NCBI RefSeq assembly: GCF_002844195.1
Contig: NZ_PEND01000003.1
Location: 62,001-126,000, forward strand
Direction: 5' to 3'
Source: Halegenticoccus soli
Lineage (GTDB): Archaea > Halobacteriota > Halobacteria > Halobacteriales > Haloferacaceae
Length of the DNA: 64,000 bases
Shown here: one piece after another, positions 38,135 through 54,556 of the stretch
Layout: every line of letters begins with the position of its first letter
Numbering within the stretch: position 1 is the first letter of the stretch
Position numbers and translations under genes: made by a program
Notes under the pieces: model-generated
Databases searched by the model: none
What the model saw: the letters and a program-made list of their open reading frames with translations, nothing else
What the model was told of the DNA's origin: nothing

Positions 38135-38287
38135 ATGTTGGGGATCGAATCGATCGAAAATAAATCCTCACGTCTCTCTCACCGGGCTGACGCCGTTGGA
38201 TCAATCGTACTATCGGAAGAATCTCAGCACGTATCAGATCGTTACGAGAAAAGTCTTTAGTAGATGATAACACACATCACAATCGAA

Positions 38288-39586
38288 ATGCCGTTAATCG
38301 AAACCGAAGGTGTGAACGTCGTTCCGGAGTCGGATCGAAACCGCGGGTTCTGGCAGATATTCGTGATCTGGGCGGGATTCACCATCGTCATCACGAACTT
38401 CCTGCTCGGATCGCTCACGGTGACGGCGGGGTTGGTCACCGGTTTCGCCGCCGCGGTGATCAGCATCGCCCTGGTGGGCATCGTCGTCTACCTCGGCACG
38501 AAGATCGCGGCGACCGAAGGGACGGCCGGTACGACGGCCATGCGGGCTCCGTTCGGCATTCAGGGACGCGTCATCCCGTCGCTGGCGATGGTTCTCGCGA
38601 CCGTGGGCTGGTTCGGCGTCCAGACCGGTATCGTCGCATCGAGCACGCAACAGATCCTCGCGAACTTCGGGTACTCGGTTCCGTTCGCCGTGCTGGCCGC
38701 GATACTCGGATTAGTCATGGCGTCGGTCGCCATCTTCGGGTATCAGTGGATCGAGTGGCTGAACAAGATCGCGGTGCCGATCATGACGGTCCTCCTCGCC
38801 ATGGTCGTCTACCAGATCGTCACCAATTACTCGACGGATCTGAGCACCGGCGGCGAGGGGATGACGTTCTGGGCGGCGCTGAACGTCTTCCCCGCGGCGA
38901 CCGCCGCGTTCCTCATCGTCGCGATGGACTACGGTCGATACGGAACGCCCGAGGACCCAGATCGGCCGAGTCTCGGGGCGAGCATCGCGTGGGTCGCGTT
39001 CGCCATCGCGCTCGCCGCCATCGGCATCGTCGCGGCCGCCGCAGCCGGCACGTGGAATCCCGTCGATATCATGGTAGAGCTCGGTCTCGGATCCGTCGGG
39101 CTCCTGCTGCTCGTTGCGGGGTCGTGGACGACGAACGTCACGAACGTGTACGCGGGCGGGATCGCCCTCTCGCAGATCACGGGCCTGCAGCGGGTGTACA
39201 TGACGACGCTGACCGGGCTCATCGGCACTGTTCTCGCCATCGCCGGTATCTTCAGCTTCGGCGGCATCATGAGTTTCCTCTCGGCGCTGACGATAACGCT
39301 CGTCCCGACGACGGGCGTCCTGCTCGTTCACTACTACCTCTTCGAGGGCGGCCTCGACGAGGACGAATTGTTCACCCGAGACGGAACGTACTGGTACCTC
39401 CGCGGCTGGAACCCGACCGCCGTCGGCGCGTGGATCGTGGGCGCCGTGTTCGCGATTCTGGCGCCGGAGTACCTCGTGCCCGCGCTCAGCAGCGCCGTCG
39501 TGGCCGGCGTGATTTACTACGTCGCCAAGCGTCCCGTCGACGACTGGATCGAAAGCCGAGCGAGGACGGGCAAACCCGCCGACTGA
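38288..39586 (+). CDS. NCS1-family permease (cytosine/purine permease-like)
   Basis: Integral membrane carrier of 432 residues with about 12 helices, starting with the family-like RGFWQIFVIWAGFTIVI helix and the conserved RAPFGIQGR loop. Such carriers import cytosine, hydantoins, allantoin, or other nitrogen compounds with H+ or Na+. I prefer the ATG at 38288 over 38264 because a T/A-rich element about 30 bases upstream (near 38252-38258) would give a very short leader. Its stop overlaps the Gfo/Idh start by one base. Confidence 0.85.
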   Translation: MPLIETEGVNVVPESDRNRGFWQIFVIWAGFTIVITNFLLGSLTVTAGLVTGFAAAVISIALVGIVVYLGTKIAATEGTAGTTAMRAPFGIQGRVIPSLAMVLATVGWFGVQTGIVASSTQQILANFGYSVPFAVLAAILGLVMASVAIFGYQWIEWLNKIAVPIMTVLLAMVVYQIVTNYSTDLSTGGEGMTFWAALNVFPAATAAFLIVAMDYGRYGTPEDPDRPSLGASIAWVAFAIALAAIGIVAAAAAGTWNPVDIMVELGLGSVGLLLLVAGSWTTNVTNVYAGGIALSQITGLQRVYMTTLTGLIGTVLAIAGIFSFGGIMSFLSALTITLVPTTGVLLVHYYLFEGGLDEDELFTRDGTYWYLRGWNPTAVGAWIVGAVFAILAPEYLVPALSSAVVAGVIYYVAKRPVDDWIESRARTGKPAD

Positions 39587-40635
39587 TGACGATCGACGTC
39601 GGCATCGTCGGGCTCGCGTCCTTTTACGGACCAGCGTACGCCGAGCGGGCGGCCGCCCGCCCGGACGTGACTGTGGCGGGCGTCGTGCCCGGCGACGCGA
39701 CGGGAGAGCAACTTGCGGCGCTCGGTCGACCGACGCCCGACGCGTTCGCCGCCGCGTACGACTGTCCAGTCTACGACGACCTCGACGAGTTACTCTCGGA
39801 CGACGCCGTCGACGGCGTCGTCGTGGCGAGCCGAACGACTCGACGGGCGGCCGACGCCGCGCGCGTCCTCCGAGCGGATCGTCCCGTCCTGACGGCGAAA
39901 CCGCCGGCGGCGACCGCCGAGGGAGCCCGCCGGATCGCCGCGGCGGCGGCGGAGGCGGACGTCCCCGCTGTCACGACGAGTCCGGCCCGGTTTGACGACG
40001 CGGTGATGGGCTTGGCTCACCGCGTCCGCACGGGGGCCGTCGGCGACGTGCTCCGCGTGCACGCTTCGATCCGCCACGACCGCGTCCCCGAAGCGGGAAT
40101 CGAGGCGAACGCAGAACACGGACCGCAGGAGGCGGGCGCAGCGTACGCGATGGCATTTTACACCGCGGACGCGTTACTCTGGCTGATCGACGCCGTTCCG
40201 CAGCGCGTGTACGCCGAGTACGCGAACCTGAATACGCCGCACAGCGTGCATCCCGATCTCGGAACCGCGACGGTTCGGTTCGAAGACGGGACGCTCGGGA
40301 CGATGACGATGACGTACGCCACCGACTGCCGGGAACCGCTCGGAAACTGGGAGTTCGAAGCCGTCGGCACCGACGGGACGATACGGACCAGACACGAAGG
40401 ATACGAGGGGATTCACTGGCACAGCAACGCCGCTGGTCGTCGGACCGAACTCTTCGGCCGGACGCAGAGCCCGATTCTCGACGAGCAGTTCGCCGCGTTC
40501 CTCGAAACGGTCCGAAACGGTGTCGAATCCGGCGCAGCGAAACTGTCCCCGGATCAAGCGGTGGAGGTCATGGAACTCTGCGAAGCGTGGGAGCGCGCCG
40601 CCGCGACCCGGACAGTCGAAACCGTCTCCAACTGA
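39586..40635 (+). CDS. Gfo/Idh/MocA family oxidoreductase
   Basis: Fourth family member, 349 residues, atypical. The Rossmann N-terminus is IDVGIVGLASFYGPAYAERAA, where the third Gly of GxGxxG is not canonical. The EKP motif is replaced by LTAKPPAATAEG. It begins at ATG 39586, sharing a base with the permease stop (TGATG). The coupling to an NCS1 carrier suggests the imported compound is oxidised. The missing Glu and altered loop make catalytic function less certain than for the other three copies. Confidence 0.8.
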   Translation: MTIDVGIVGLASFYGPAYAERAAARPDVTVAGVVPGDATGEQLAALGRPTPDAFAAAYDCPVYDDLDELLSDDAVDGVVVASRTTRRAADAARVLRADRPVLTAKPPAATAEGARRIAAAAAEADVPAVTTSPARFDDAVMGLAHRVRTGAVGDVLRVHASIRHDRVPEAGIEANAEHGPQEAGAAYAMAFYTADALLWLIDAVPQRVYAEYANLNTPHSVHPDLGTATVRFEDGTLGTMTMTYATDCREPLGNWEFEAVGTDGTIRTRHEGYEGIHWHSNAAGRRTELFGRTQSPILDEQFAAFLETVRNGVESGAAKLSPDQAVEVMELCEAWERAAATRTVETVSN

Positions 40636-41001: not shown

Positions 41002-41796
41002 ATGGCCTCACAAAGCGATCCTCCTCGAACGGTCAAATCGGCCGAAACGACGCTCGAGATCATCGAAACCCTGCGGCGACTCGACGGAGCCGGCGTGTCG
41101 GAAATCGCAGAGCACGTCAACCGATCGGTTGGGACGGTACACACGTACCTCGCGACGCTTCGACAGCGAGGGTACGTCGTTCAGGAGGGGAACTCGTACC
41201 GTCTCAGTTTTCACTTCGTGGCGCTCGGCGAGCACGTCCGGAACCGTTCGGACCTCTATCGAGCGGGAAAAGAAGAGATCGACCGCCTCGCTACCGAAAC
41301 CGGTGAGTGCGCTCACCTCATCGTCGAGCAGAACGGGTACGAAGTCAGCCTCTACGAGGCGTTCGGCGAACACGCCGTCGGGATGAAATTCTACGTCCAG
41401 AACCGGGAAGCACCGCGTGAGCACCTCCAGTGCACCGCTTCCGGGAAGGTGATCCTGGCGCACCTGCCCGATCGGCGGATCCGCGAGATCATCGACCGCC
41501 TCGACTTCGTGCCTCGGACTCCGAACACGATCACCGACGAGGAAACGCTGCTGGAGACGCTCGAACGGGTCCGTGAGCGAGGATTCGCCCTCAACGACGA
41601 GGAGGAGATCCAGGGGATGCGCGCCGTTGCGGCACCGATCACCGATCGCGATAATACGCTTCTCGGCGCCGTGAGCCTGTCTGCGCCGGTTCGTCGGATC
41701 AGAGAGGACGTCTTCCGAAAGGAGATCCCCGAACGAGTCGTTCAGGCTGCTAACGTCATCGAAGTTAACCTCCAAACGGCTGATTTAGCGATCTGA
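41002..41796 (+). CDS. IclR-family transcriptional regulator
   Basis: DNA-binding regulator of 264 residues. The winged helix-turn-helix is VSEIAEHVNRSVGTVHTYLA, followed by the linker and the effector domain with the typical TASGKVILAH stretch. IclR proteins in haloarchaea act as repressors or activators of catabolic genes. It has the opposite orientation to the second IclR gene at 42256, ending tail-to-tail across 459 bases, and follows the NCS1-Gfo/Idh pair. Confidence 0.92.
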   Translation: MASQSDPPRTVKSAETTLEIIETLRRLDGAGVSEIAEHVNRSVGTVHTYLATLRQRGYVVQEGNSYRLSFHFVALGEHVRNRSDLYRAGKEEIDRLATETGECAHLIVEQNGYEVSLYEAFGEHAVGMKFYVQNREAPREHLQCTASGKVILAHLPDRRIREIIDRLDFVPRTPNTITDEETLLETLERVRERGFALNDEEEIQGMRAVAAPITDRDNTLLGAVSLSAPVRRIREDVFRKEIPERVVQAANVIEVNLQTADLAI

Positions 41797-42255: not shown

Positions 42256-43023
42256 TCACGAAAACTCGAGTTTGAGTTCCATCTCGTTCGTAGATCCGAG
42301 TACGAGGCTGGGAAGTTCCTCTTCGAACGTCTCACCCTTGAACCGATGGACGGGGCCCGAGATGCTCAGGGCACCGACGACGGTGCCATCGGACGCGCAG
42401 ACGGCGCTACCGACGGCACTGAGCCCCGGGGTGGACTCTTCGACGTTGTACGCGTAGCCGCGTTCGCGGATTTCAGCGAGTTCTGCGAACAGCTCGTCGC
42501 GATCGGTGATTGTATTCGGCGTGTACGCCGGGAGTCCGTGTTCGTCAAGGATCAATTCGACACGCTCTTCTGGAAAGTTCGCAAGGATGGCTTTTCCGGC
42601 GGCGCTGGTGTGAAGGTGGCCGCGTTTGCCGATGCTGGCGTCGGTTTGAACCGCGTTTTCGCCGATCTGGGTGTACAGGTAGATGCGGTGACCGTGCTCT
42701 TCTACGATGAATTGGACGCGCTCGCCGGTCTCGTCCGCGACTTGATCGACCTTCTGTCTCGCGAGTTCAAAGGCCGGGTGTCGGGTCTGGACGTGGCCGC
42801 CGAGGGTCAGAAAGCGCATTCCGAGCTGGTACGATTCGCCACGCTTCGTGACGTAGCCACGTTGGCGGAGCGTGAGGAGGTGGCGGTGGACGGTACTAGG
42901 AGCGAGATCTAGCGCCTCGGCCAACTCCTTTATCTGCGCACTCTTCCGCTCCCGCAGAGCGTGTATGATATCGAAGTTCGTATCGACCGTCGAAACCGTC
43001 GATCGCGTTTGATGGGTGGTCAT
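42256..43023 (-). CDS. IclR-family transcriptional regulator
   Basis: Second IclR protein, 255 residues. HTH is IKELAEALDLAPSTVHRHLL, and the effector domain contains the TSAAGKAILANFPEERV stretch. It lies downstream of the minus-strand genes for the M29/NicX-like enzyme, PrpF-type isomerase and TcuA-like flavoprotein, so it is a good candidate for their regulator. The gap to the M29-like gene is 419 bases, so it probably has its own promoter. Confidence 0.92.
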   Translation of the reverse strand: MTTHQTRSTVSTVDTNFDIIHALRERKSAQIKELAEALDLAPSTVHRHLLTLRQRGYVTKRGESYQLGMRFLTLGGHVQTRHPAFELARQKVDQVADETGERVQFIVEEHGHRIYLYTQIGENAVQTDASIGKRGHLHTSAAGKAILANFPEERVELILDEHGLPAYTPNTITDRDELFAELAEIRERGYAYNVEESTPGLSAVGSAVCASDGTVVGALSISGPVHRFKGETFEEELPSLVLGSTNEMELKLEFS

Positions 43024-43442: not shown

Positions 43443-44429
43443 TCAGTCGAAGAGCTCGCGACGGAGGCGGCCGTCCTTGACGACGACGGTGTCGTCGAGG
43501 CGGACGGTCGGCCGGCGGATGACCCCGTCGAGGTGGATGTCGCTCTTCGTCGTCCCGCCGAGCGATTCGTTGTCGCCGACGGCGAAGTGCACCGTTCCTT
43601 CGCGTTTCTTGTCTTCCGCGAGATTGCCGATGAGCTTCGCCTTCGGATTGGTACCGATGGCGAATTCGGCGAGGTTACGGGCGTTCTTTCCGTTGGCGTC
43701 GAAGATGGCCGCTAACTCCTCAGCCTGAGCACCGCCGTCGACGTCGGTCACGAACCCGTCTTCGAGGCCCAGTTCGACGGGTGCGTCCAGCTGCCCGAGG
43801 TTGTCCATCGAGACATCGACGACGATCGTTCCGTTCGCCGTCCCCTCCTTCGGGTGCGTCGGCGCCTCGCCCGGCGGAAGCGTGGCGAAGCCGTACTCCT
43901 CGTGGAAGTACCCGTCGAGCGAGAACGACCGACAGCCGTCGAGCTCGAATTTGACGTCCGTACCGTTGTCCCCGGTGACGTGCGCGCTGTCGGCATCGGT
44001 GATGAGGTCGCAAACCGCCTCCGTCCGCCGCCGAAGTGCCTCGAAGTCGACCGTCATCGCTCCTTCGATCATCATCTCTTCGGTCACACCGCGGAGGATC
44101 CCGATCCGGGTTCCTTCGCGGGCGGCCCGCAGTCGCGCCCGAGTGTGAGTGATGGCGTGCGTCGTACACGTGAAGGCGACGTCTGCGGTCGCCATCGACT
44201 CGGCGATGGTGTCAAGCGGCTCGTTTCCGTGACTCTCGAGGAGTGGCATCACCGATGTGACCACTTCGGCATCCAAGCCGTTTGCCGCCGCTGCGATGCT
44301 CCGGCCAACGCCGAACGTTTTCGGATCGGTGATGACGAGCACCTCCTCTCCCGGCTCCACGCTCAAACACTGTTCGACGATCGCGTACGAGGCGCTCGAC
44401 ATCTCTAGGTCCACTAGGTCCTGCGTCAT
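43443..44429 (-). CDS. M29-type aminopeptidase / NicX-like metalloenzyme, copy 1
   Basis: A 328-residue protein of the COG2309 fold shared by M29 aminopeptidases and the 2,5-dihydroxypyridine dioxygenase NicX. Candidate metal ligands, assigned by homology, are Glu188 (PPGEAPTHP), Glu255 (LAEFAIGTNP), His281 (TVHFAVGDN), His299 and Asp301 (IHLDGV). NicX has His where Glu255 stands, so the set here is the peptidase-like one. It lies downstream of the PrpF and TcuA-like genes, 53 bases from the PrpF stop, with a TATA-like ACATATAC of its own. The other paralogue at 47234 differs at this ligand. Confidence 0.82.
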   Translation of the reverse strand: MTQDLVDLEMSSASYAIVEQCLSVEPGEEVLVITDPKTFGVGRSIAAAANGLDAEVVTSVMPLLESHGNEPLDTIAESMATADVAFTCTTHAITHTRARLRAAREGTRIGILRGVTEEMMIEGAMTVDFEALRRRTEAVCDLITDADSAHVTGDNGTDVKFELDGCRSFSLDGYFHEEYGFATLPPGEAPTHPKEGTANGTIVVDVSMDNLGQLDAPVELGLEDGFVTDVDGGAQAEELAAIFDANGKNARNLAEFAIGTNPKAKLIGNLAEDKKREGTVHFAVGDNESLGGTTKSDIHLDGVIRRPTVRLDDTVVVKDGRLRRELFD

Positions 44430-44482
44430 CGTTCTACTTGGTAGAGATTGTCACCCTGTATATGTCTTTTGTAAGATAATCG

Positions 44483-45634
44483 TCACGACTGCGTGTCGGT
44501 CACGTAGTAGCCGGTGCCGTCCATCAACCGGCGCTGCGTTCGGTACACCGTCACGGCCTCGACGCGCGGCGCGTCAGGGTCAAGACGAACCGTTGCCGAC
44601 ATCGTCCCTTTCGGGTGACCGAGCGTTACCGTTTCCCCGTCGAGCTCTGCCGCCTCGTTTGGAATCGTCCCCGGCAGTAGCGCGGCCGCGGCCGTACAAG
44701 AGACGCCGGTGACGGCGTAAACGGGATGGAGCTTCTGCATACTCATGTAGCGCGCCGCGAGATTCACTTCGTCTTCGCGGACCCTCCCTCCCTCAGTCGT
44801 CGCGTAGTCCGTCGGGGGAGCGACGAAGACGAGCTTGGGGAACCCCGGCGATTCGACGGACGCCCGGGCCGGGTCGTCCACGAGACCGAGTTCGGCGCAG
44901 ACCCTCCCGCGAATGCGTTCGAGTCGTTCGAGCAACGCGGTGTCGCCGTCGATCCGTTCGGGGCCTTCCGTGGCGGTGAGCCCCAGATCTGACGACCGGA
45001 CGAACGCGATCGGCGTCGTGACGTCGAGGACGGTCATCTCGAGCGCCTCGCCGTCGATCTCTAGTTCGACCGTCGGCCCGCCGAGCGGGAAGAGTTCGTC
45101 CGTGACCGCGCCCGCTGGGTCGAGAAACGTCGTGTCGACCCGCGCGCCAGTTCCGGGAACGCCGTGCACTTTGAACTCCCCGCGCGTGGCCGCGTGGTTG
45201 CCCGACAGCGGGATTCGTTGTTCGATCGTCGAGTCGGTGTTCGTGTTGTACAGCCGGAGATCAACCGCCTCGGCCTCCGCCGGCACGTCGACCATTCCCT
45301 CGTCCACGGCGAACGCTCCGACGGCGCAGGTCAGGTTTCCGCAATTGCCGCCGTAGTCGACGACGGGCTCGTTGACGGCGACCTGTCCGAACGTGTATAC
45401 GATGTCGACGTCCGCGTCGGTGGGCACCTCGTCCCCGGCCGGTCCGACGATCATGAGCTTCGAGGTCGTCGAAGTCGCCCCTCCGAGGCCGTCGATCTGC
45501 CGGTCGTCGGGGCTCCCGAACAGCGACAGGACGGCAGCGTCTCGGTCGTCCGCCGGGAGCTCCTCGCAGGGGATGAATACCCCTTTGCTCGTGCCCCCGC
45601 GGACGATCGCACAGCGGACGGACTGTTGGTCCAT
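44483..45634 (-). CDS. PrpF-family isomerase (methylaconitate/aconitate isomerase-like)
   Basis: A 383-residue PrpF-type protein with two diaminopimelate-epimerase-like halves. It begins with the family sequence [12 protein letters not shown]. By homology the two residues important in PrpF are Lys59 ([10 protein letters not shown]) and Cys98 (GGNCGNLTC). PrpF interconverts 2-methyl-trans- and -cis-aconitate and also trans-aconitate; related enzymes act on 4-oxalomesaconate. Its start lies directly after the stop of the TcuA-like gene, so they act together. An aconitate- or oxalomesaconate-type double-bond shift is the most likely reaction. Confidence 0.86.
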
Positions 45635-47044
45635 CTACTCTCCCTCCAGGAACGCTGCGGCGCTTTCGGCGGCAATTTTCCCGTATACGGCGCCGTTGGA
45701 GAGACCGGTCCCGCCGGGATAGTTGTCGAAGAACAGTCCGCCGACGGTGTTACCCGCCACGTAGAGCCCGGAGATAGGTCGGCCGACGGTGTCGAGCGCG
45801 CGGGCGTCCGTGTCGGATGCAACGCCGCCGAAACCGAACGTGATTCCGCCGGTGACGCTGTAGCCGTGGAACGGCGGCTCGTCGATGGGCAGCGCCCAGT
45901 TCGTCTTCTCGACGTCCAGCCCCTCCGTGCAGTTTCCGTCGAGAGCGTCGGGATCGAACTCGCCGGGGGTGCACGCAGCGTTGAACTCCCTGACCGTCTT
46001 GGCTCCGGCGACCGGCTTCTCGCATCCGAGCTCTTCCAGCACCGCGTCGACTGTCTCGCCGACGACAGGATCTGATGGCCCGGTGGCTCGCACGTACCGC
46101 TTCAACGGCTCGTCGACGACGATGTACGCTGTGTGGCCGGGCTGTTCGAAGATGCGTCGGCCGAGCTTCGCGTACGTGTGAGCGCGGGCGTCCTCTCCTT
46201 CGTCGAAGAAGCGCTCGCCCTCGTTGTTGAGGATGACGCCGTACTGGTAACCGTCGACGCGGTTCGCGCCCCCCTCGACGTCCGGCGACGCGCTGTCGAT
46301 GAGCGCCATGTGTGCGCCGCCCCACTGACCGACCGCGTCGGCACCGATGTCGATGAGCATGTCGATGGCTTCCCCGGTGTTGTATCGGCTTCCGCGGACT
46401 TTCATTGCGTCGTAGTCGGATCCGTAGTAGCGGGTCCGCTTTTCCTCGCTCGACTCATAGCCGCCGGCGCCGACGACGACGGCGTGGGCTGCGAACTCCA
46501 CGAATCCGTCGTCGGTTCGAGCGCGGACGCCGGCGACCTCACCCCGTTCGTCGAGCGCGAGTTCGCGAGCTTCTGTCCGGTAATAGAACGTCGCACCGTC
46601 CGCTTCGGCCGCCTCGACCAGCGTCGAGACGAGTTCTTCCCCCTCGAAGAAGGTTCGCGAGACGGTGTAACCGACGTTGAGCGGCTCCATGTCCCACGAG
46701 ACGCCGCGGTCCGTGAGCCACTCGACGGTTGGACCCGCGTTGTCCACGAGCGTCCGAGCGATGTCGGGATCGGCTCGGCCGTTCGTCTGTTTTATGATGT
46801 CGTCGTAGAAATCGTCCGGCGAGTAATCGTCGATTGCAAACTCGTAGCCGTACTGTCCGATGTCGGTGTCGGTCGACGGGACGCGGAACGACTCGCTGAA
46901 GCGGGTGTGTCCGCCACGGTGTTCTTGCGGCGCCTTCTCTAGGACGCCAACGTCGTATCCGAGTTCGACCGCGCGGTTCGCGGCGGAAAGCCCGGCGATG
47001 CCACACCCCACTACAATAACGTCATGATCGCTAATGACATTCAT
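45635..47044 (-). CDS. tcuA: FAD-dependent tricarballylate dehydrogenase-like flavoprotein
   Basis: Flavoprotein of 469 residues in the fumarate-reductase/succinate-dehydrogenase flavoprotein superfamily, closest in my reading to TcuA of Salmonella, which oxidises tricarballylate to cis-aconitate. Dinucleotide motif VVGCGIAGLSAANRAVELG at the N-terminus, then the TcuA-like RGGHTRFSESFR, the GITFGFGGV segment and GLYVAGNTVGG at the end. The electron-transfer partner TcuB is not present in the window. It shares an upstream region with the divergent M29-like gene and is first of a unit with PrpF. The symbol is by similarity and unproven. Confidence 0.8.
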   Translation of the reverse strand: MNVISDHDVIVVGCGIAGLSAANRAVELGYDVGVLEKAPQEHRGGHTRFSESFRVPSTDTDIGQYGYEFAIDDYSPDDFYDDIIKQTNGRADPDIARTLVDNAGPTVEWLTDRGVSWDMEPLNVGYTVSRTFFEGEELVSTLVEAAEADGATFYYRTEARELALDERGEVAGVRARTDDGFVEFAAHAVVVGAGGYESSEEKRTRYYGSDYDAMKVRGSRYNTGEAIDMLIDIGADAVGQWGGAHMALIDSASPDVEGGANRVDGYQYGVILNNEGERFFDEGEDARAHTYAKLGRRIFEQPGHTAYIVVDEPLKRYVRATGPSDPVVGETVDAVLEELGCEKPVAGAKTVREFNAACTPGEFDPDALDGNCTEGLDVEKTNWALPIDEPPFHGYSVTGGITFGFGGVASDTDARALDTVGRPISGLYVAGNTVGGLFFDNYPGGTGLSNGAVYGKIAAESAAAFLEGE

Positions 47045-47068
47045 CGTCCGTCTTCATCGGGGTAATGC

Positions 47069-47076
47069 GTATAGAT
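47069..47076 (-). promoter_or_regulatory. TATA box of the TcuA-like gene
   Basis: Read on the minus strand, CTATACGC lies about 28 bases before the ATG at 47044, so transcription would begin almost at the start codon. Confidence 0.55.
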
Positions 47077-47201
47077 AGTAGTTTCGCCGGAGGCCGAATA
47101 TTGCGGTCCCTCCCGAGATACGGAATAGCGGCGCGGAGCGGACGAGGTTACCGTCTGTCGAAAGCTGGTCGCAGCGCGGCGTTCCCACCGAGGGGGAACC
47201 A

Positions 47202-47209
47202 CTATATAC
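47202..47209 (+). promoter_or_regulatory. TATA box of M29/NicX-like copy 2
   Basis: CTATATAC lies 29 bases before the ATG at 47234, the usual archaeal distance with a leaderless or nearly leaderless message. Together with the divergent box at 47069, it defines a compact intergenic control region. Confidence 0.6.
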
Positions 47210-47233
47210 CAGTACTCGAAATCATCGCCCGCT

Positions 47234-48211
47234 ATGAACTCCGTCCAGGAGATGAAAGGTGCGAGTATTGTCGTCGAAACCTGTGCCGCCGTCGAACCGG
47301 GGGAGGACGTGCTGGTGGTCTCCGACTGGGAAGTCGCGGGCATCGCCGAGCGCGTCGCCGCCGCCGCCAACGAGCGCGACGCCAACGTGTCTATGACGCT
47401 CATGGACCCCCGCGAGTACGATGGCAACGAACCGGAGGCGACGGTCGCCGCCGCAATGCTCGAAGCCGACGTGATTATCACTCCCGTTCACCGCTCTATC
47501 ACCCATTCGAGTGCCGTCGCGAGAGCGAAGGACGCCGGCGCGCGCGTCGTCAGTATGGTGAAGTTCACCAGAGAGCAACTGATTACGGGCGGGCTCTACG
47601 CCGACTACAAGGGGATGCGACCGAACTGCGAGGCGATGGCGGAGAGGTTCACGGAGGCGAGCGAGGCGCGCATCACCTCGCCACAGGGCACCGACGTCAC
47701 CGTCGGCCTCGAGGGACGGCCGGGCAACGCTCACCCCGGAATCGCGGACGAACCGGGCGAGTTCACCGCACTCGTTCACATCGAATCGAACATCGCCCCG
47801 GTCGAAGGGACGACCGAAGGAACGGTCGTTTTTGACGGCGCGATTCCGAATCTCGACATCGGCGTTCTCGAGACGCCGGTGACGATGGAGATCGAAGACG
47901 GCGCGGTCACATCCGTCGACGGGGGACGCGAGGCCGAACGTATCGCGAGCGTGTGGGCCGAACACGACGACCCCGCCGTCTACAACATCGCCCAGCTCGC
48001 CGTCGGGATGAATCCCGAGTGCCGGGAGTTCAACGGCTGGTTCTCGAACGACCACGGTCGGTACGGCAACGTTCACTTCGGCATCGGAACGAGTAGCAAT
48101 CTGGGCGGCACCACGCGTGCGCCGGTTCACTTCGATGCGATGATGGCCGAACCGACCCTCGAACTCGACGGCGAAGCTGTCCTTGAGGACGGAGAATTCA
48201 CTTTCTTCTGA
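47234..48211 (+). CDS. M29-type aminopeptidase / NicX-like metalloenzyme, copy 2
   Basis: Second COG2309 paralogue, 325 residues. By homology the candidate ligands are Glu176 (DEPGEFTAL), His281 (NVHFGIGTSS), His299 and Asp301 (VHFDAMM), but the position equivalent to Glu255 of copy 1 is Gln254 (NIAQLAVGMN). NicX has His there. The ligand set thus differs from a standard M29 aminopeptidase, so the two copies may have different chemistry. It precedes the TctC gene by 103 bases, and the TctC gene has its own TATA box. Confidence 0.8.
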   Translation: MNSVQEMKGASIVVETCAAVEPGEDVLVVSDWEVAGIAERVAAAANERDANVSMTLMDPREYDGNEPEATVAAAMLEADVIITPVHRSITHSSAVARAKDAGARVVSMVKFTREQLITGGLYADYKGMRPNCEAMAERFTEASEARITSPQGTDVTVGLEGRPGNAHPGIADEPGEFTALVHIESNIAPVEGTTEGTVVFDGAIPNLDIGVLETPVTMEIEDGAVTSVDGGREAERIASVWAEHDDPAVYNIAQLAVGMNPECREFNGWFSNDHGRYGNVHFGIGTSSNLGGTTRAPVHFDAMMAEPTLELDGEAVLEDGEFTFF

Positions 48212-48281
48212 GTTACTTTCCGTTTCATTCCTCTCCGTATCGTCCGATAGCGTCCGACTCCTCGCGCTATCGTGCAAAAAA

Positions 48282-48290
48282 CTTATATAT
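48282..48290 (+). promoter_or_regulatory. TATA box of the TctC gene
   Basis: CTTATATAT is followed 25 bases later by the ATG at 48315, giving a very short leader. The preceding AAAAAA could serve as BRE. It separates the TctCBA transporter genes from the gene before it. Confidence 0.7.
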
Positions 48291-48314
48291 AGACGAACTA
48301 AGTGCAAACTTGCC

Positions 48315-49391
48315 ATGTCAGATGAGGACAACGGACAGTCCGTGAACCGTCGGACATTCCTGAAGTACTCCGGCGCGGCCTCGGCGGCCTCGATGGCCGG
48401 GTTGGCCGGATGTTCAGGTGAAGCGAACGACAACTCGGGTTCGGGCGGCGGCTCGGGATCGAACAACAACTCCGGCTCCGGGTACCCGTCAGGTGACCTC
48501 CGGTACATCGTCCCGTTCTCCGAGGGCGGCGGCACCGACACCTACGCCCGCCAGGTGATTCCCATGATGGCCGAGGAGCTCGGCGTGAACATCGCCATCG
48601 AGAACATTCCGGGAGCGGCGTCGCTCCGCGGCACAGGGAAACTCTACATTTCGAAGCCGGACGGCTCGACTTTCGGAGGGTTCAACCCACCGTCGACGCC
48701 GGTCTCGGCGATGGTGAACCCCCCGGATTACGACCTTCGGAAGCTCGTGGGCGTGGGAGCGTACGCTCGCACACCGTTCGTGATCGTCGCTAACCCGGAA
48801 CACGAGATCGAAGACATGTCAGACCTCGTCGAGCGGTACCAGTCGGGCGAGCTGACGACGTTCGCCGGAAAAGAGCGCGGCGGCGTCGACCACGTGCTCG
48901 CTCTCTTGATGAAGGGGAACGACGAGTACGGGTTATCCTGGGAGCAGTACGTCGGCTATGACGGGTCCGGTCCAGCCGTTCAGGCGGTCGTCTCGAACGA
49001 GGTACCGGTCTCTATCAGCACCGACACCGCCGCGGCCGCTGCGGTGGAGGACGGGCGAATCAACACGGTTACGTGCCTGTCGAGTGAGGGAACCTCCGTC
49101 TTCCCCGAGCTCCAGTCGGTCGCGGACGAGGGCTTCCCGAACATCGACTACCTCGGCCAGCTCCGTCGCTGTATGTTCCTGCCGCCTGAGACTCCGGACG
49201 ACGTGGTCCAGACGCTCACCGGCGCGCTGGAGACCGCACTCCAGACGGAGAAAGTCCAGACGTGGTCCGAGAACACTGGCAACGTCATCGAGTACGGTCC
49301 GCCGGAGGCCGCCGAGTCCGCCGTCGCAGATGCGTTCGAACAGATCCCCGAGAACGTCGATCTCGAAGAGGTCCGCGAAGCCGCAAACTGA
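48315..49391 (+). CDS. tctC: Tripartite tricarboxylate transporter binding lipoprotein TctC
   Basis: Exported binding protein of 358 residues. Tat signal (NRRTFLKYSGAASAASMAG), lipobox LAGC and a Ser/Gly/Asn-rich linker. The mature protein starts with LRYIVPFSEGGGTDTYARQV, the TctC/BugT consensus, and ends in the family C-terminus. It captures a carboxylate outside the cell and delivers it to TctA/TctB. The start is set by the signal peptide and TATA box. It heads the TctCBA unit. Confidence 0.93.
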   Translation: MSDEDNGQSVNRRTFLKYSGAASAASMAGLAGCSGEANDNSGSGGGSGSNNNSGSGYPSGDLRYIVPFSEGGGTDTYARQVIPMMAEELGVNIAIENIPGAASLRGTGKLYISKPDGSTFGGFNPPSTPVSAMVNPPDYDLRKLVGVGAYARTPFVIVANPEHEIEDMSDLVERYQSGELTTFAGKERGGVDHVLALLMKGNDEYGLSWEQYVGYDGSGPAVQAVVSNEVPVSISTDTAAAAAVEDGRINTVTCLSSEGTSVFPELQSVADEGFPNIDYLGQLRRCMFLPPETPDDVVQTLTGALETALQTEKVQTWSENTGNVIEYGPPEAAESAVADAFEQIPENVDLEEVREAAN

Positions 49392-49454
49392 TCGCAGCTC
49401 TTCGGCTGTCTCCCCGCAGGATTTATCACGGCTCACTTAGTGGTTGTTATCCAC

Positions 49455-50087
49455 ATGGCAAATGAACGCAAAGCACGTACGGACTCAACGGTCTTCGGAG
49501 AGTGGTACCGGCGGCTCACGACGGAGGTAATCGACCAGGAGACCGTGTTGATACTTGTTATGGCCGCAACCTCGGGGTACATGCTCTGGGGGACGACGCA
49601 GTTCGATATACAGAGCGCCGCACGGTTCCCTCGCCTCACCGCCAGCGTTGTTCTCGTCGGATCCGTCCTCCTTCTTGTTCGCGACTTCCTCCCTGAACCG
49701 CTCCGAAATCCCCTCGTTGCGTCCGGCGGGATGTTCGAGGCCGACGAGGAGTTCGCGGAACGTCAGGAGATCGTCGAGAGCGTGCGAGAAGCCGGAACGT
49801 CGGCCGACGAGCGCGCGATCTCGACGGTTGGACGACCCGTTCACGACTCGCTGTTCACCTCGCTGTCCGTCATCGCGTACGCGATTTTGGGGTACTCCGT
49901 GGGCCTGCTCTGGGCGACGCCGCTGTTCGTCGTCGCCTACGGCGTCTGGTTCCGTCTTCGTCCGCTTTACACGGCGCTTCTCGCCGCAATCGCCTTCGGG
50001 ATCGCGTACAGTTTCATGATCGTGCTGAACGTTCCGATGGACGGCGGCGCGTTCCTGCTCACGGAGGGGGTCTCATGGCTACCGTGA
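49455..50087 (+). CDS. tctB: Tripartite tricarboxylate transporter small membrane subunit TctB
   Basis: Small membrane subunit of 210 residues with about four helices and an acidic loop between the first and second pair. ATG at 49455 (MANERKARTDS). Its order before the large TctA subunit and after TctC is the usual one. The stop of TctB overlaps the TctA start by 13 bases, so their translation is linked. Confidence 0.85.
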   Translation: MANERKARTDSTVFGEWYRRLTTEVIDQETVLILVMAATSGYMLWGTTQFDIQSAARFPRLTASVVLVGSVLLLVRDFLPEPLRNPLVASGGMFEADEEFAERQEIVESVREAGTSADERAISTVGRPVHDSLFTSLSVIAYAILGYSVGLLWATPLFVVAYGVWFRLRPLYTALLAAIAFGIAYSFMIVLNVPMDGGAFLLTEGVSWLP

Positions 50088-51565
50088 GCGCTCTCGCCGA
50101 GGCGGCCCAGACGCTTTTTACGTGGCCGACCCCGATGTGGATCGCCATCGGGCTCGTCCTCGGGATGATCGCGGGGGCGCTGCCCGGCGTCGGCTCCTCG
50201 CTCGGGATGGCCATCATCCTCCCGCTCACGCTCCCACTCGGGCCGGTGAACGCCATCGTCCTCCTCGTGAGCATGTACAGCGGGGCGATGTACGGCGGAA
50301 GCATCGCCGCAATCCTCGTGAACGTTCCAGGCACTGGGGCGGCCGCCGCAACGACGTTCGACGGCTACCCGATGTCGAAGCAGGGACGAGCGGTCGACGC
50401 GCTGTCGATATCGGCGACGTCGTCGTCCCTCGGCGGCCTGTTGACCGTCCTCACCCTCATTCTCATTTCGCCCATCCTCATCGAAGTGGTTCTCCTGTTC
50501 GGGACCCCCGAGTACTTCCTCATGGCTGTCCTCGGCCTCTCTATGATAGGGGTCGTTGCCCACGGTTCCGCCGTGAAGGCGCTCGTTGCGGGCGCCTTCG
50601 GGATGCTCCTGACCGCCATCGGAATTGCCCCGAACTCACCCGAGTTGCGGTACACATTCGGCTCGCTTAGCCTCTACGACGGGATCGACTTCATCGCCGC
50701 CCTCATCGGGATGTTCGCGATCGCGGAGATGATAAAGCTCTCCGCCCAGCGCGGCGGGATCGCGGCCGAAGGCATCGAACTCACGGGAAACGTCGTTACC
50801 GGCGTCAAGGAAGCGCTCAGTCACCCGGTGACGCTCGTCAAATCCAGCTTCATCGGGATGTTCATCGGGGCGGTTCCCGGTTCCGGCGCGACGGTTTCCA
50901 ACTTCCTTTCGTACGGCGAGGCCATGCGGAGTTCGAACGCCCCCGAACGGTTCGGTAACGGCGAGCCGCTCGGCGTGATCGCCTCCGAGGCGTCTAACAA
51001 CGGCACCATCGGCGGATCGCTCATTCCCACGATCTCCTTCGGCATTCCCGGGAGCGGCTCGACGGCGGTTCTCCTCGGGGGGCTCCTCATGCACGGCCTC
51101 CGCCCAGGTCCGCAACTGTTTGAAACCGAACTGGCGACGACATACACGTTCCTGCTCGCCCTCCTCGTCGGCAACGTGTTCATCTTCCTCGTCGGCGTCT
51201 TCCTCGTGACGAAGCTCGGCGGTCTCACGCAGATCGACACCCACTACATCGTTCCGACGATCGTCGTCCTCTCGATGGTCGGTGGGTACACGCTCAGAAC
51301 GAACTGGATCGATGTCGCGACGGTCGTCAGTCTCGGCATTCTCGGCTATCTGATGGTCAAGTACAACTACTCGATCATCGCGTTCGTCCTGGGAGTCGTG
51401 CTCGGGCCGATCGCCGAGGAGAACCTCATTCGATCGCTCCAGTTGTCCGGCGGGTCCTACTCGATATTCGTCACGGAGCCCCTTTCGCTGCTGATCGTCA
51501 TCCTCATCCTGGTCGTCCTCTTCGGCCCGGCGGTGAAGGAACAGCTCGAACGCCGGCTGACCTGA
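50075..51565 (+). CDS. tctA: Tripartite tricarboxylate transporter large permease TctA
   Basis: Large membrane subunit of 496 residues, about 12 helices, with the TctA consensus GALPGVGSSLGMAIILPLT near the N-terminus and FIGMFIGAVPGSGATVSNF and SFGIPGSGSTAVLLGGL later. These two Gly-Pro-Gly-Ser loops are characteristic. Secondary carrier driven by H+ or Na+ for citrate-like, tricarballylate-like or aromatic acids. It completes the TctCBA system. Confidence 0.95.
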   Translation: MATVSALAEAAQTLFTWPTPMWIAIGLVLGMIAGALPGVGSSLGMAIILPLTLPLGPVNAIVLLVSMYSGAMYGGSIAAILVNVPGTGAAAATTFDGYPMSKQGRAVDALSISATSSSLGGLLTVLTLILISPILIEVVLLFGTPEYFLMAVLGLSMIGVVAHGSAVKALVAGAFGMLLTAIGIAPNSPELRYTFGSLSLYDGIDFIAALIGMFAIAEMIKLSAQRGGIAAEGIELTGNVVTGVKEALSHPVTLVKSSFIGMFIGAVPGSGATVSNFLSYGEAMRSSNAPERFGNGEPLGVIASEASNNGTIGGSLIPTISFGIPGSGSTAVLLGGLLMHGLRPGPQLFETELATTYTFLLALLVGNVFIFLVGVFLVTKLGGLTQIDTHYIVPTIVVLSMVGGYTLRTNWIDVATVVSLGILGYLMVKYNYSIIAFVLGVVLGPIAEENLIRSLQLSGGSYSIFVTEPLSLLIVILILVVLFGPAVKEQLERRLT

Positions 51566-51623
51566 CTCCGTCGCCTTACCGTCTCGACAAGCCTTTTAAC
51601 GCTGGTCGGTGTGTGACGCGTCA

Positions 51624-53084
51624 ATGACCGACGACCCCGACCTGGACGGTGAGTCTCGCCCCGGTTGGCTGCAGGACGCAGTCGCGTGGGGCGGTCTCCT
51701 CACCGCGAGTGCGGCGATACTGTGGTGCATAGCGTCTCCGCCGCCACCGGGACTCACACCATCGATGCAGGGTGTCTTTGCGGTGTTCGTGTTCTCGCTG
51801 CTTCTCTGGCTGACGAAGGCCGTCCCGTACGTCGTCTCGAGCACGCTGAGCGTCACCCTCCTCTTCGCGCTCGGCGCCGTCGAGACGTTTCGAGCGGCGG
51901 CCATCGGGTTCGCTTCGACGCTCGTGTTCTTCCTGTTTCTCCTGCTCCTGCTCGGTCAAACTATCGCAAAGGTGAATCTCGACGTCTGGTTCGCCTCCAA
52001 ACTCCTGTCAGCGGGCGACCGCTCGCCGCGGCCCCTCAGGTCGCTCTCGATGAACCTGCTCGCGCTCTCGTTCGTCATGCCGTCCGCAGTCGCGCGCGCG
52101 GTGACGTTCATCCCGGTCGTCCGAAAACTCTCCGAGGCGTACGGCGTCGGCCACGGGAGCGACTTCGAACGATCGTCGTTTCTAATTCTCGGACACGTCA
52201 ATCCGATCGCGTCGATGGCGCTCATGACGGGCGGCGGGATGGCGATCATCACCTCCGAACTCGTCCAGGCAGAGATTCGCCCGATAACGTGGGTCGAGTG
52301 GGCCGTCCTGATGATTCCGCCGGTTGTGGTTCTTTACGTCCTGTCCGCGCTGACCGCAGAGCGGTTCTACGGCGCACTCTCGGAACTCGACGCGTCGGCG
52401 GCGCGCGCAAACGGGGGTATTTCGACCCCGGCGGAAACGTTCGACGCGGCGCCGACGGACTCGTTCACGGACGAACAGCGCATCGTCGCCGGCGTCATGG
52501 TCGGAGCCGTCCTCCTCTGGGTGATCGGGTCCTTCGTCGGCGTGCCGACCATCGTCCCCGCTGCACTCGCGGTCGGGGTGCTAGCGCTTCCCGGCGTCGG
52601 CGTCATCTCCCGCGAGGACATCGCGAACGTCAGTTGGGGGATTCTCTTCGTCATCGGGACCATGTTCTCCATCCTCGAAGCAATGGATGCGACGGGCACG
52701 CTCTCCTACATCGTCGATACGATAACCGGCGCGATTCCGTTTACGTCGCTCGCCTACGGGGAGACTGTCGCAACGCTCCTCGCGCTCGCGGTCCTCATCC
52801 GAGTGTTCTTCTCGACCGCTTCGGCCGCCATCATCGTCGTCCTCCCCATCCTGCTCAGCTTCGGAGAGGCACTGGGGGTAAACCGGCTCTATCTCGCCCT
52901 CTCGGTTCTCATCATCGTCGGCTCTACGACCTTTCTTCCATTCAATACGACCTCCGTCCTCCTCTCGTTCGACCGCGGCCCGCTGTCTAACTGGGACGTC
53001 TTCGCATTTGGACTCGTGACTATGTGTTACGGGGCGCTGGTGATCGCCGTTTCGTGGCTGGTCTACTGGCCGCTGGTCGCCTGA
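51624..53084 (+). CDS. SLC13/DASS-family anion carrier
   Basis: Sodium-coupled-type di-/tricarboxylate or sulfate carrier of 486 residues with 11-12 helices. Landmarks include LTKAVPYVVSSTLSVTLLF, LSFVMPSAVARAVTFIPVV, LILGHVNPIASMALMTGG, a soluble loop between helices 6 and 7, and SVLIIVGSTTFLPFNTTSVLL with the SNT-type (NTT here) carboxylate-binding motif. It follows the TctCBA genes by 58 bases and has a T-rich element before the ATG at 51624. A second route for organic acids or for product export is likely. Confidence 0.88.
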   Translation: MTDDPDLDGESRPGWLQDAVAWGGLLTASAAILWCIASPPPPGLTPSMQGVFAVFVFSLLLWLTKAVPYVVSSTLSVTLLFALGAVETFRAAAIGFASTLVFFLFLLLLLGQTIAKVNLDVWFASKLLSAGDRSPRPLRSLSMNLLALSFVMPSAVARAVTFIPVVRKLSEAYGVGHGSDFERSSFLILGHVNPIASMALMTGGGMAIITSELVQAEIRPITWVEWAVLMIPPVVVLYVLSALTAERFYGALSELDASAARANGGISTPAETFDAAPTDSFTDEQRIVAGVMVGAVLLWVIGSFVGVPTIVPAALAVGVLALPGVGVISREDIANVSWGILFVIGTMFSILEAMDATGTLSYIVDTITGAIPFTSLAYGETVATLLALAVLIRVFFSTASAAIIVVLPILLSFGEALGVNRLYLALSVLIIVGSTTFLPFNTTSVLLSFDRGPLSNWDVFAFGLVTMCYGALVIAVSWLVYWPLVA

Positions 53085-53130
53085 ACGGTCGTCCATAGGC
53101 TTATTAGGCAGTGGTTCGTGTCCGTTGACG

Positions 53131-53565
53131 ATGCCTATCGTCGTCGCAGTCGATCGGTCCGGACCGAAGACCGCGCTCATCGAAGAAGGACAAAAACTCG
53201 CCGCCGCCTTCGGCGACGAACTCCGCGTGGTCCACTCGATGGATCGCAAGGCGTTCCAAGCGTTAGAGGAGGACAGTGTCGAGCAGACCGGACGGACCGT
53301 CGACCTCGACGACGTCAGGGAGCTGGCTCGCGAAATCGCTGCAGACGCCATCGACACCGCGGACGTTGAGGCTACGCCTGTTGGCCTCGTCGGCGATCCG
53401 GCCGATGCCGTGGTCACGTACGCCCGGAACGAGAGCGCCCGATACGTCGTCGTCGGCGGTCGCCAGCGTTCGCCGGTGGGGAAGGCCCTGTTCGGTAGCG
53501 TCACCCAGTCCGTTCTCCTGCGGTCCGACTGCCCTGTCGTCGCCGTCTTGAACGAAGGCACATGA
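53131..53565 (+). CDS. Universal stress protein (UspA family)
   Basis: Usp domain of 144 residues starting MPIVVAVDRSG, with VVGGRQRSPVGKALFGSVTQ as the ATP-binding loop. The stop overlaps the ATG of the 2-hydroxyacid dehydrogenase gene (ATGA), so they form a unit. A TTG six bases upstream could also be a start. Usp proteins are often coupled to transporters in haloarchaea, and here the SLC13 carrier precedes it. Confidence 0.9.
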   Translation: MPIVVAVDRSGPKTALIEEGQKLAAAFGDELRVVHSMDRKAFQALEEDSVEQTGRTVDLDDVRELAREIAADAIDTADVEATPVGLVGDPADAVVTYARNESARYVVVGGRQRSPVGKALFGSVTQSVLLRSDCPVVAVLNEGT

Positions 53566-54556
53566 CGTCGCTCCCCCGAGCCCTCGTCGATCAGGACATC
53601 CAGCCTGCTGAACGCCTCCGCGAGCGGTCGACGAATCGGTTCGATCTCACGTTCGGCGTCGACTCCACCGAGGAGGCGCTCATCGAGTCGCTTGAGGGGC
53701 AGTCGGTCCTCTTTACTACGTCCCGGCTTCCCGTCTCGGAGCGCGTGCTTCGACGAGCGTCGTCGCTCGAACTCGTCGCGAAGGTCGGAACCGGCCTCGA
53801 TAGCGTCGATCTCAGTGCGGCTGCCGACTTCGGCGTTGGCGTCATCTACACCCCCGGTTTCAACGCGCTGTCGGTCGCCGAGCACGCGTTGGCGCTTCTG
53901 TTGACCGTCAACCGCAACGTCGTCGCAGGACGTGACACGCTCCGCGCGGGCGGGTGGCGCGACACGATGCCGACGAGCCGACCCGTGACCGGTACCACCG
54001 TCGGGATCGTCGGGTTTGGCGACGTGGGACGCCGGTTCGCCGGTCTACTTACCGGCTTCAACGTCACGTCCTCGCGTACGATCCGTACGTCTACGAGATC
54101 GATACCGACGTCACTGGCGCAACGCTCGTCGAGTTCGACGAACTCCTCGTGTCTTCCGACGCCGTCGTCGTCACCGCGGAGCTCACCGACGAGACGTGCG
54201 GCATGATGGACGCCGCGGCGTTCGACCGCATGCGGTCGAACGCGACGCTCGTCAACACTGCCCGCGGCCCGATCGTCGACACCGCTGCGCTGGTGAACGC
54301 GCTCGACGATGGGCGAATCGCCGGTGCTGGACTCGACGTTTTCGAAACCGAACCGCTCCCCCCCGACTCGCCACTCCACGACCGCGAAAGCGTCGTCCTT
54401 ACGCCGCACATGGGCGCGTCGTCCGTCCGAGCGCGTGTTCGAATCATCGACACGCTCGTTGCCAGCGTCGCCGCCGCTCTCGAACGCCGCCCCGTCGACG
54501 ACCGATTCGTCGCCGTGCCGCCGGGGAGCCGACTCGGCCCGTCGCGGAACGATTGA
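53562..54556 (+). pseudogene. D-2-hydroxyacid dehydrogenase with frameshift
   Basis: The first part (MTSLPRALVDQDIQ through GIVGFGDVGRRFAGLLTGFNV) and the second part (HVLAYDPYVYEID through ETEPLPPDSPLH) are the two pieces of one D-isomer-specific 2-hydroxyacid dehydrogenase of about 330 residues. The join is at 54063-54065, where one base is missing and the frame changes. Both parts keep the family residues: the NAD motif GFGDVGRRFAG, Arg in NTARGPIVDT, Glu in the DVFETEP segment, and His in LTPHMGASS. Either the gene is broken or the base was lost in sequencing; the intact-looking halves leave both open. It starts inside the stop of the Usp gene. Confidence 0.85.

Follow-up and report, generated by a model that had tools for sequence, protein, structure and literature searches.

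What does a haloarchaeon degrade with a gene block that combines a tripartite tricarboxylate transporter (TctCBA), a TcuA-like flavoprotein, a PrpF-family isomerase and two proteins related both to M29 aminopeptidases and to the ring-cleaving dioxygenase NicX? We addressed this question for a locus of Halegenticoccus soli contained in a window of 64,000 nucleotides (contig NZ_PEND01000003.1, positions 62,001 to 126,000; coordinates below are those of the window). A preliminary description of the locus had proposed import and oxidation of a tricarballylate- or aconitate-like acid. Our analysis favours an IclR-controlled module, present in several haloarchaeal families, for the uptake and assimilation of a single di- or tricarboxylic acid that is branched and unsaturated (probability about 0.6). 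The module is not a Salmonella-type tricarballylate pathway. Its general kind, transporter-linked polycarboxylate catabolism, is known; the new part is an uncharacterised pair of NicX-fold proteins, designated here M29a and M29b. The reading is based on gene content, conservation, co-inheritance, folds and the residues kept or lost, from which we infer the import and catalytic steps.

A divergent module conserved in haloarchaea

All seven open reading frames initially assigned to the unit exist at the coordinates given and match their named families, but its boundaries were drawn too narrowly, since the conserved unit also takes in genes for an IclR regulator, a DASS symporter and a UspA-like protein. 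The module consists of two arms placed back to back, one with IclR, M29a, PrpF and the flavoprotein, the other with M29b, TctCBA, DASS and UspA:

42256–43023, minus strand: IclR-family regulator, beside M29a (PF01614, 135.1 bits)
43443–44429, minus strand: M29a, NicX-fold predicted metalloenzyme of 328 residues (PF02073, 44.6 bits; AlphaFold2 model)
44483–45634, minus strand: PrpF-family allylic isomerase (PF04303, 335.8 bits)
45635–47044, minus strand: TcuA-like FAD flavoprotein of the fumarate reductase/TcuA superfamily (FAD_binding_2, 122.7 bits; NF006130, 435.8 bits)
47045–47233, both strands: bidirectional promoter region of 189 bases with a BRE/TATA-like motif facing each way
47234–48211, plus strand: M29b, second NicX-fold protein, 325 residues (NicX match, E 1e-14; AlphaFold2 model)
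48315–49391, plus strand: TctC substrate-binding protein with a Tat signal (PF03401, 84.6 bits; PF10518)
49440–50087, plus strand: TctB small membrane subunit (PF07331, 33.9 bits; ATG 49455 is a possible start)
50075–51565, plus strand: TctA large membrane subunit (PF01970, 429.7 bits)
51609–53084, plus strand: DASS (SLC13-type) anion symporter (PF00939, 135.6 bits)
53125–53565, plus strand: UspA-like protein, usually adjoining DASS in relatives

Together with an M29b 79–92% identical to that of the window, the module recurs in 10 haloarchaeal genera. A contig search with M29a retrieved 13 loci, several of them in nearly the gene order of the window; such an order is found in Halegenticoccus, Haladaptatus, Halopenitus, Halarchaeum and Halalkalicoccus, while the block is rearranged in Halorubrum, Salinadaptatus and others. 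Because close copies of the block are present in many haloarchaeal genomes, the arrangement is not due to chance. We then considered 25 loci with a close M29a, not all of them independent events, as some represent the same species in two collections. Homologues were counted by tblastn, since gene calling had passed over PrpF in one locus (L044) and M29b in another (L047). The preliminary description had made its proposal depend on co-occurrence with TctCBA in related genomes, and this was found: TctC is encoded in 24 and TctA in 23 of the 25 loci. M29b (at least 79% identity) and DASS are each present in 22, PrpF and UspA in 21, IclR (39–79% identity) in 20 and TcuA in 19. Conservation within the unit is highest for M29b, with 85–92% identity in 21 loci and 79% in one more; in locus L031, for example, identities to the window are 92% for M29b, 89% for TctA, 85% for M29a, 83% for TcuA and 80% for PrpF.

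Co-inheritance is equally apparent across 391 genomes of Halobacteria. Close M29b is found in 16 genomes, all of which also carry close M29a (18 genomes in total). Close TcuA occurs in 14 genomes, 13 with both M29a and M29b; expressed differently, it is present in 13 of the 16 genomes with M29b and in 1 of the remaining 375. Fisher tests gave 1.5e-26 for M29a/M29b and 1.2e-20 for M29b/TcuA when genomes were counted, and 1.6e-11 and 6.8e-9, respectively, by genus. The genus-level values are the safer ones, because the genomes are related and the thresholds for a close homologue (at least 68% identity for M29a, 79% for M29b and 73% for TcuA) were chosen after inspection of the gaps in identity, which run from 68 to 58%, from 79 to 54% and from 73 to 66%, respectively. 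Overall, the conserved loci and the co-occurrence uphold the earlier view of a divergent, co-inherited unit around a common promoter region. In that region, BRE/TATA-like motifs, identified by consensus match, lie at 47085 on the minus strand and 47196 on the plus strand. These CGAAAC...ATAT motifs recur in the aligned intergenic regions of three relatives (L031, L032 and L034). A search of the divergent region for palindromes or inverted repeats found none.

The transporter genes TctC, TctB and TctA are contiguous, and each product exceeds its Pfam cut-off. All three subunits of a tripartite tricarboxylate transporter are thus represented, although the module TctC differs in bearing a Tat signal; its start is most likely ATG 48315 and not the TTG of the longest open reading frame.

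Several genes flank the module. A gene for a D-2-hydroxyacid dehydrogenase (53562–54529, plus strand), intact beside UspA in related loci (60–67% identity), is split in the window by a frameshift near 54056–54068, meaning that the gene is disrupted or the sequence contains an error. A second IclR gene (41002–41796, plus strand) and, upstream, an NCS1-like permease and a Gfo/Idh-like dehydrogenase (38264–40635, assigned by eye) are not conserved with the module.

The flavoprotein and the isomerase

The flavoprotein had been taken for a tricarballylate dehydrogenase producing cis-aconitate, an assignment that our results do not support. The protein passes the TcuA model NF006130 (cut-off 369) and falls far below the cut-off of TIGR02485 (243 bits, cut-off 372.55). 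In the phylogenetic tree, seven reference TcuA proteins with an adjacent TcuB (from Salmonella, Shinella, Variovorax and others) form a single clade with 100/100 support, and every haloarchaeal protein falls outside it. The motifs differ as well, with GGLFFDNYPGGTGL at the position of AGNVLGKGYTAGVGM of Salmonella TcuA, and HMALID instead of HCVAID. Furthermore, a search for TcuB (TIGR02484) in the 391 Halobacteria, including the genome of H. soli itself, returned nothing above the cut-off (0/391). A Salmonella-type Tcu system was therefore rejected on two grounds, the position of the flavoprotein outside the TcuB-linked clade and the absence of TcuB. Salmonella tcuRABC and the haloarchaeal module both encode a carboxylate importer, and their FAD flavoproteins belong to one superfamily; however, in the module IclR and TctCBA stand where Salmonella has TcuR and a major facilitator superfamily importer, PrpF and the M29 pair are additional, and TcuB is missing.

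The neighbours of related flavoproteins are informative. A relative in Bradyrhizobium has electron transfer flavoprotein genes alongside, which by analogy suggests an electron carrier other than TcuB. Other relatives are encoded next to PrpF plus LeuCD-like, MmgE/PrpD, CoA-transferase or lyase genes, and these neighbourhoods fit C=C chemistry on branched acids generally, not on tricarballylate in particular. In a locus of Halalkalicoccus CGA53 (L071), close TcuA and PrpF genes without M29 nearby are accompanied by MaoC, CaiB, CoA ester lyase, amidase and nitrile hydratase, a neighbourhood reminiscent of itaconate-type degradation.

The designation of the isomerase as a PrpF-type aconitate isomerase holds at the level of family and catalytic residues only. 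The catalytic Lys (TSK) and Cys (NCGN) are kept and align with K73 and C107 of SoPrpF, both of which are required for growth on propionate (PMC5690661). Among PDB proteins, the window PrpF is closest to 3-methylitaconate isomerase (3g7k, 287.7 bits), followed by PrpF (217.4) and oxalomesaconate isomerase (161), and it has a second Cys that is common to 3g7k and absent from SoPrpF. The cut-offs of the equivalog models for 2-methylaconitate isomerase (TIGR02334, 248.7 bits, cut-off 440.55) and oxalomesaconate tautomerase (NF033377, 269.2 bits, cut-off 440) are not reached. Unlike these characterised enzymes, the haloarchaeal PrpF proteins constitute a single clade (100/99) with no characterised member inside, so tree position does not reveal the substrate. 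A second PrpF, 42–48% identical to that of the window and forming its own haloarchaeal clade, is present in L042, L043, L045, L046 and L052–L055.

The NicX-fold pair

The two M29/NicX-like enzymes are members of the unit and, as initially noted, fit no described tricarballylate pathway. M29a exceeds the cut-off of the M29 family (PF02073, cut-off 27), and M29b remains below it (20.4 bits); M29b matches NicX in sequence, and the best PDB sequence match of M29a is likewise NicX (7cn3). Structural models of both proteins were obtained with high predicted local distance difference test values (93.8 for M29a and 92.9 for M29b). For both, the best fold match is NicX (7cn3/7cup), with template modelling (TM) scores of 0.79–0.81 for M29a and 0.85–0.86 for M29b. 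The aminopeptidases PepS, AmpS and AmpT come next, at 0.62–0.70 over both models (0.67–0.70 for M29b).

The metal site differs from those of both relatives. In NicX, Fe(II) is bound by His265, Ser302, His318 and Asp320 (PMC7910607). In the alignment, which is one of low identity, the corresponding residues are E, A, H and D in M29a and Q, G, H and D in M29b; that is, His265 and Ser302, two of the four iron ligands, are changed, whereas the His318 and Asp320 positions are common to all three proteins. M29a keeps E255, H281, H299 and D301, and M29b keeps H281, H299 and D301, with Q in place of E255. His281, located two residues before the position of NicX Ser302, is absent from NicX and matches a His of the M29 peptidases. 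The position of NicX Arg293 is K or H, Glu177 and His189 are apparently not kept (the alignment is weak there), and the position of NicX His105 is His in nearly all members. M29a and M29b are also about 35 residues shorter than NicX. With the M29 aminopeptidases they share the C-terminal half, and M29a the positions of Glu255, His281, His299 and Asp301; however, they are about 85 residues shorter and lack the Glu of the PepS motif FDENASNH, which we take to be the residue bridging the two metals in these peptidases. By the same low-identity alignment, this position is occupied by K/R in M29a and by R in M29b.

Three separate groups emerge in the tree, namely M29a, M29b and the general M29 copies of haloarchaea, and NicX lies far off on a long branch. 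M29b groups with a protein of Neorhizobium (49% identity) and three haloarchaeal proteins (50–54%) with 98/96 support; its bacterial distribution was surveyed in plasmid sequences. Two assignments were rejected. An M29 homologue is present in 391/391 Halobacteria, which might make M29a a housekeeping aminopeptidase, but five general copies form a separate clade. Membership in a nicotinate/dihydroxypyridine pathway is contradicted by the altered iron ligands and by the neighbourhood: a search for other nicotinate genes among the open reading frames of the region found none, unlike in the nic cluster of Azospirillum. A Paracoccus yeei gene annotated as 'leucyl aminopeptidase' (L074:7839-8870) is part of a nic-type cluster, and its product falls in the NicX group; the annotation is likely an error.

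Of the earlier hint at a hydrolytic or ring-cleaving step, the ring-cleaving part keeps some probability, but the NicX iron ligands are changed. We tentatively suggest that M29a and M29b could be an obligate, possibly heteromeric, metalloenzyme pair catalysing a reaction that is undescribed for the superfamily and differs from both dihydroxypyridine dioxygenation and peptide hydrolysis, and opening an undescribed route of polycarboxylate catabolism, a joint proposal that is somewhat more likely to fail than to hold.

Two gene sets and the candidate chemistry

Relatives indicate how the module may have been assembled. In three haloarchaeal genomes (G255, G378 and G126), an M29b-type gene adjoins TctCBA or lies within about 3 kb of it, with no TcuA or PrpF in the stretch read; an M29b-type gene is near TctA in Neorhizobium, too. 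In three others (Halocatena, Haladaptatus caseinilyticus and G112), the genes run IclR-TctC-TcuA-TctB-TctA-PrpF, and M29 is missing. Since each set occurs without the other, the most fitting view of the window module is that it combines an M29b-TctCBA set with a TcuA-PrpF-TctCBA set, both linked to a transporter.

In the favoured reading, TctCBA, and DASS, would bring in the acid, and M29a and M29b, with their altered metal sites, would act on the imported compound in a metal-dependent reaction. The flavoprotein would add or remove a C=C bond beside a carboxylate, with a carrier other than TcuB handling the electrons, and PrpF would shift this bond by a Lys/Cys allylic mechanism, giving a product suited to the tricarboxylic acid cycle or to a CoA/lyase route. 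For the M29 step, hydrolysis of a C–N bond (amide or lactam) is the candidate that we prefer, at less than even odds. It is favoured because of the peptidase-like His281 and because of neighbouring genes. M29a cousins (56–58% identity) in L056–L059 are accompanied by urea/branched-chain-type ABC transporters in place of TctCBA, and L057 and L059 additionally have a cupin and an amidohydrolase close by. Likewise, gamma-glutamyltranspeptidase accompanies M29a in L040, L048 and L049. These three loci also encode DASS, Tct proteins, a mandelate-racemase-like enzyme, a membrane protein of the PF03601 type and a fumarylacetoacetate hydrolase; close homologues of M29b, TcuA and PrpF were not detected in them by tblastn.

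Several observations weigh against this scheme. In structure, M29a and M29b resemble the ring-cleaving dioxygenase NicX more than they do peptidases. Near the M29b-type genes of G255 (L124) and G126 (L126) we found a Rieske ferredoxin and an AibH/PtmU3-like amidohydrolase-2 protein, the latter, in G126, having AibH as its closest named structure type; two genes in G378 (L125) are assigned to the same pair by their sizes and position alone. AibH1H2 has been described as a monooxygenase. The pair is probably an oxygenase, pointing to oxidative chemistry. Given the NicX fold and the oxygenase-like components near M29b-type relatives, ring cleavage is a less likely candidate for the M29 step. In addition, 4 of the 25 M29a loci (L037, L040, L048 and L049) lack both TcuA and PrpF, so the M29 step may predate the TcuA/PrpF step and be distinct from it.

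These observations bear on the alternatives, none of which we consider likely. The nearest is degradation of an N- or O-heteroaromatic polycarboxylate, in which M29b (or M29a) would be a ring-cleaving non-haem dioxygenase, PrpF would tautomerise the unsaturated open-chain acid as GalD/LigU do, and the flavoprotein would reduce or oxidise it. Both fold (TM 0.79–0.86) and sequence place NicX closest, the His105 position is preserved, PrpF scores 269 bits with the oxalomesaconate tautomerase model, and oxygenase-like genes accompany M29b-type relatives; however, the His265, Ser302 and Arg293 positions are changed, Glu177 and His189 seem lost, no oxygenase was recognised in the window module, and hydroxylase, deformylase and maleamate amidase genes are missing nearby, unlike in a true nic cluster. 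On this balance, we regard such a pathway as unlikely. A true tricarballylate/aconitate pathway, with the flavoprotein converting tricarballylate to cis-aconitate, PrpF converting trans- to cis-aconitate, TctCBA as importer and the M29 genes as extras, appears less likely again. It would agree with the TcuA name given by NF006130, with known aconitate isomerases of the PrpF family (TarA/TbrA, PMC11495376; SoPrpF, PMC5690661) and with the joint occurrence of TcuA, TcuB, AcnA and PrpF in Shinella. It is opposed by the clade and motifs of the flavoprotein, by the lack of TcuB in all 391 Halobacteria searched and by the scores of TIGR02485, TIGR02334 and NF033377, all under cut-off, and it leaves the co-inherited M29 pair unexplained. 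A full-text literature search uncovered no study of tricarballylate in haloarchaea, nor anything usable about the combination of PrpF, tripartite tricarboxylate transporter and M29.

The least probable alternative is a loose neighbourhood, in which TcuA/PrpF and M29/TctCBA act on two different substrates and move jointly as one catabolic island. The separate existence of the two sets, the occurrence of M29a without M29b, TcuA and PrpF in L040, L048 and L049, and the two IclR genes of the window would be expected from it. By contrast, close TcuA is found nearly exclusively in genomes that carry both M29 genes (13/14), even where the genes are dispersed, as in G105, in which TcuA is about 15 kb from M29a, and window-type loci hold a single TctCBA set in the block for both halves.

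Collectively, these results have a consequence for annotation, as the public name 'FAD-dependent tricarballylate dehydrogenase TcuA' on these haloarchaeal genes covers a separate clade without TcuB. They also define a conserved, testable catabolic unit in which a NicX/M29-fold subfamily is tied to a tripartite tricarboxylate transporter in archaea and at least one alphaproteobacterium. Once its substrate is identified, two enzyme families that are so far uncharacterised would receive names together.

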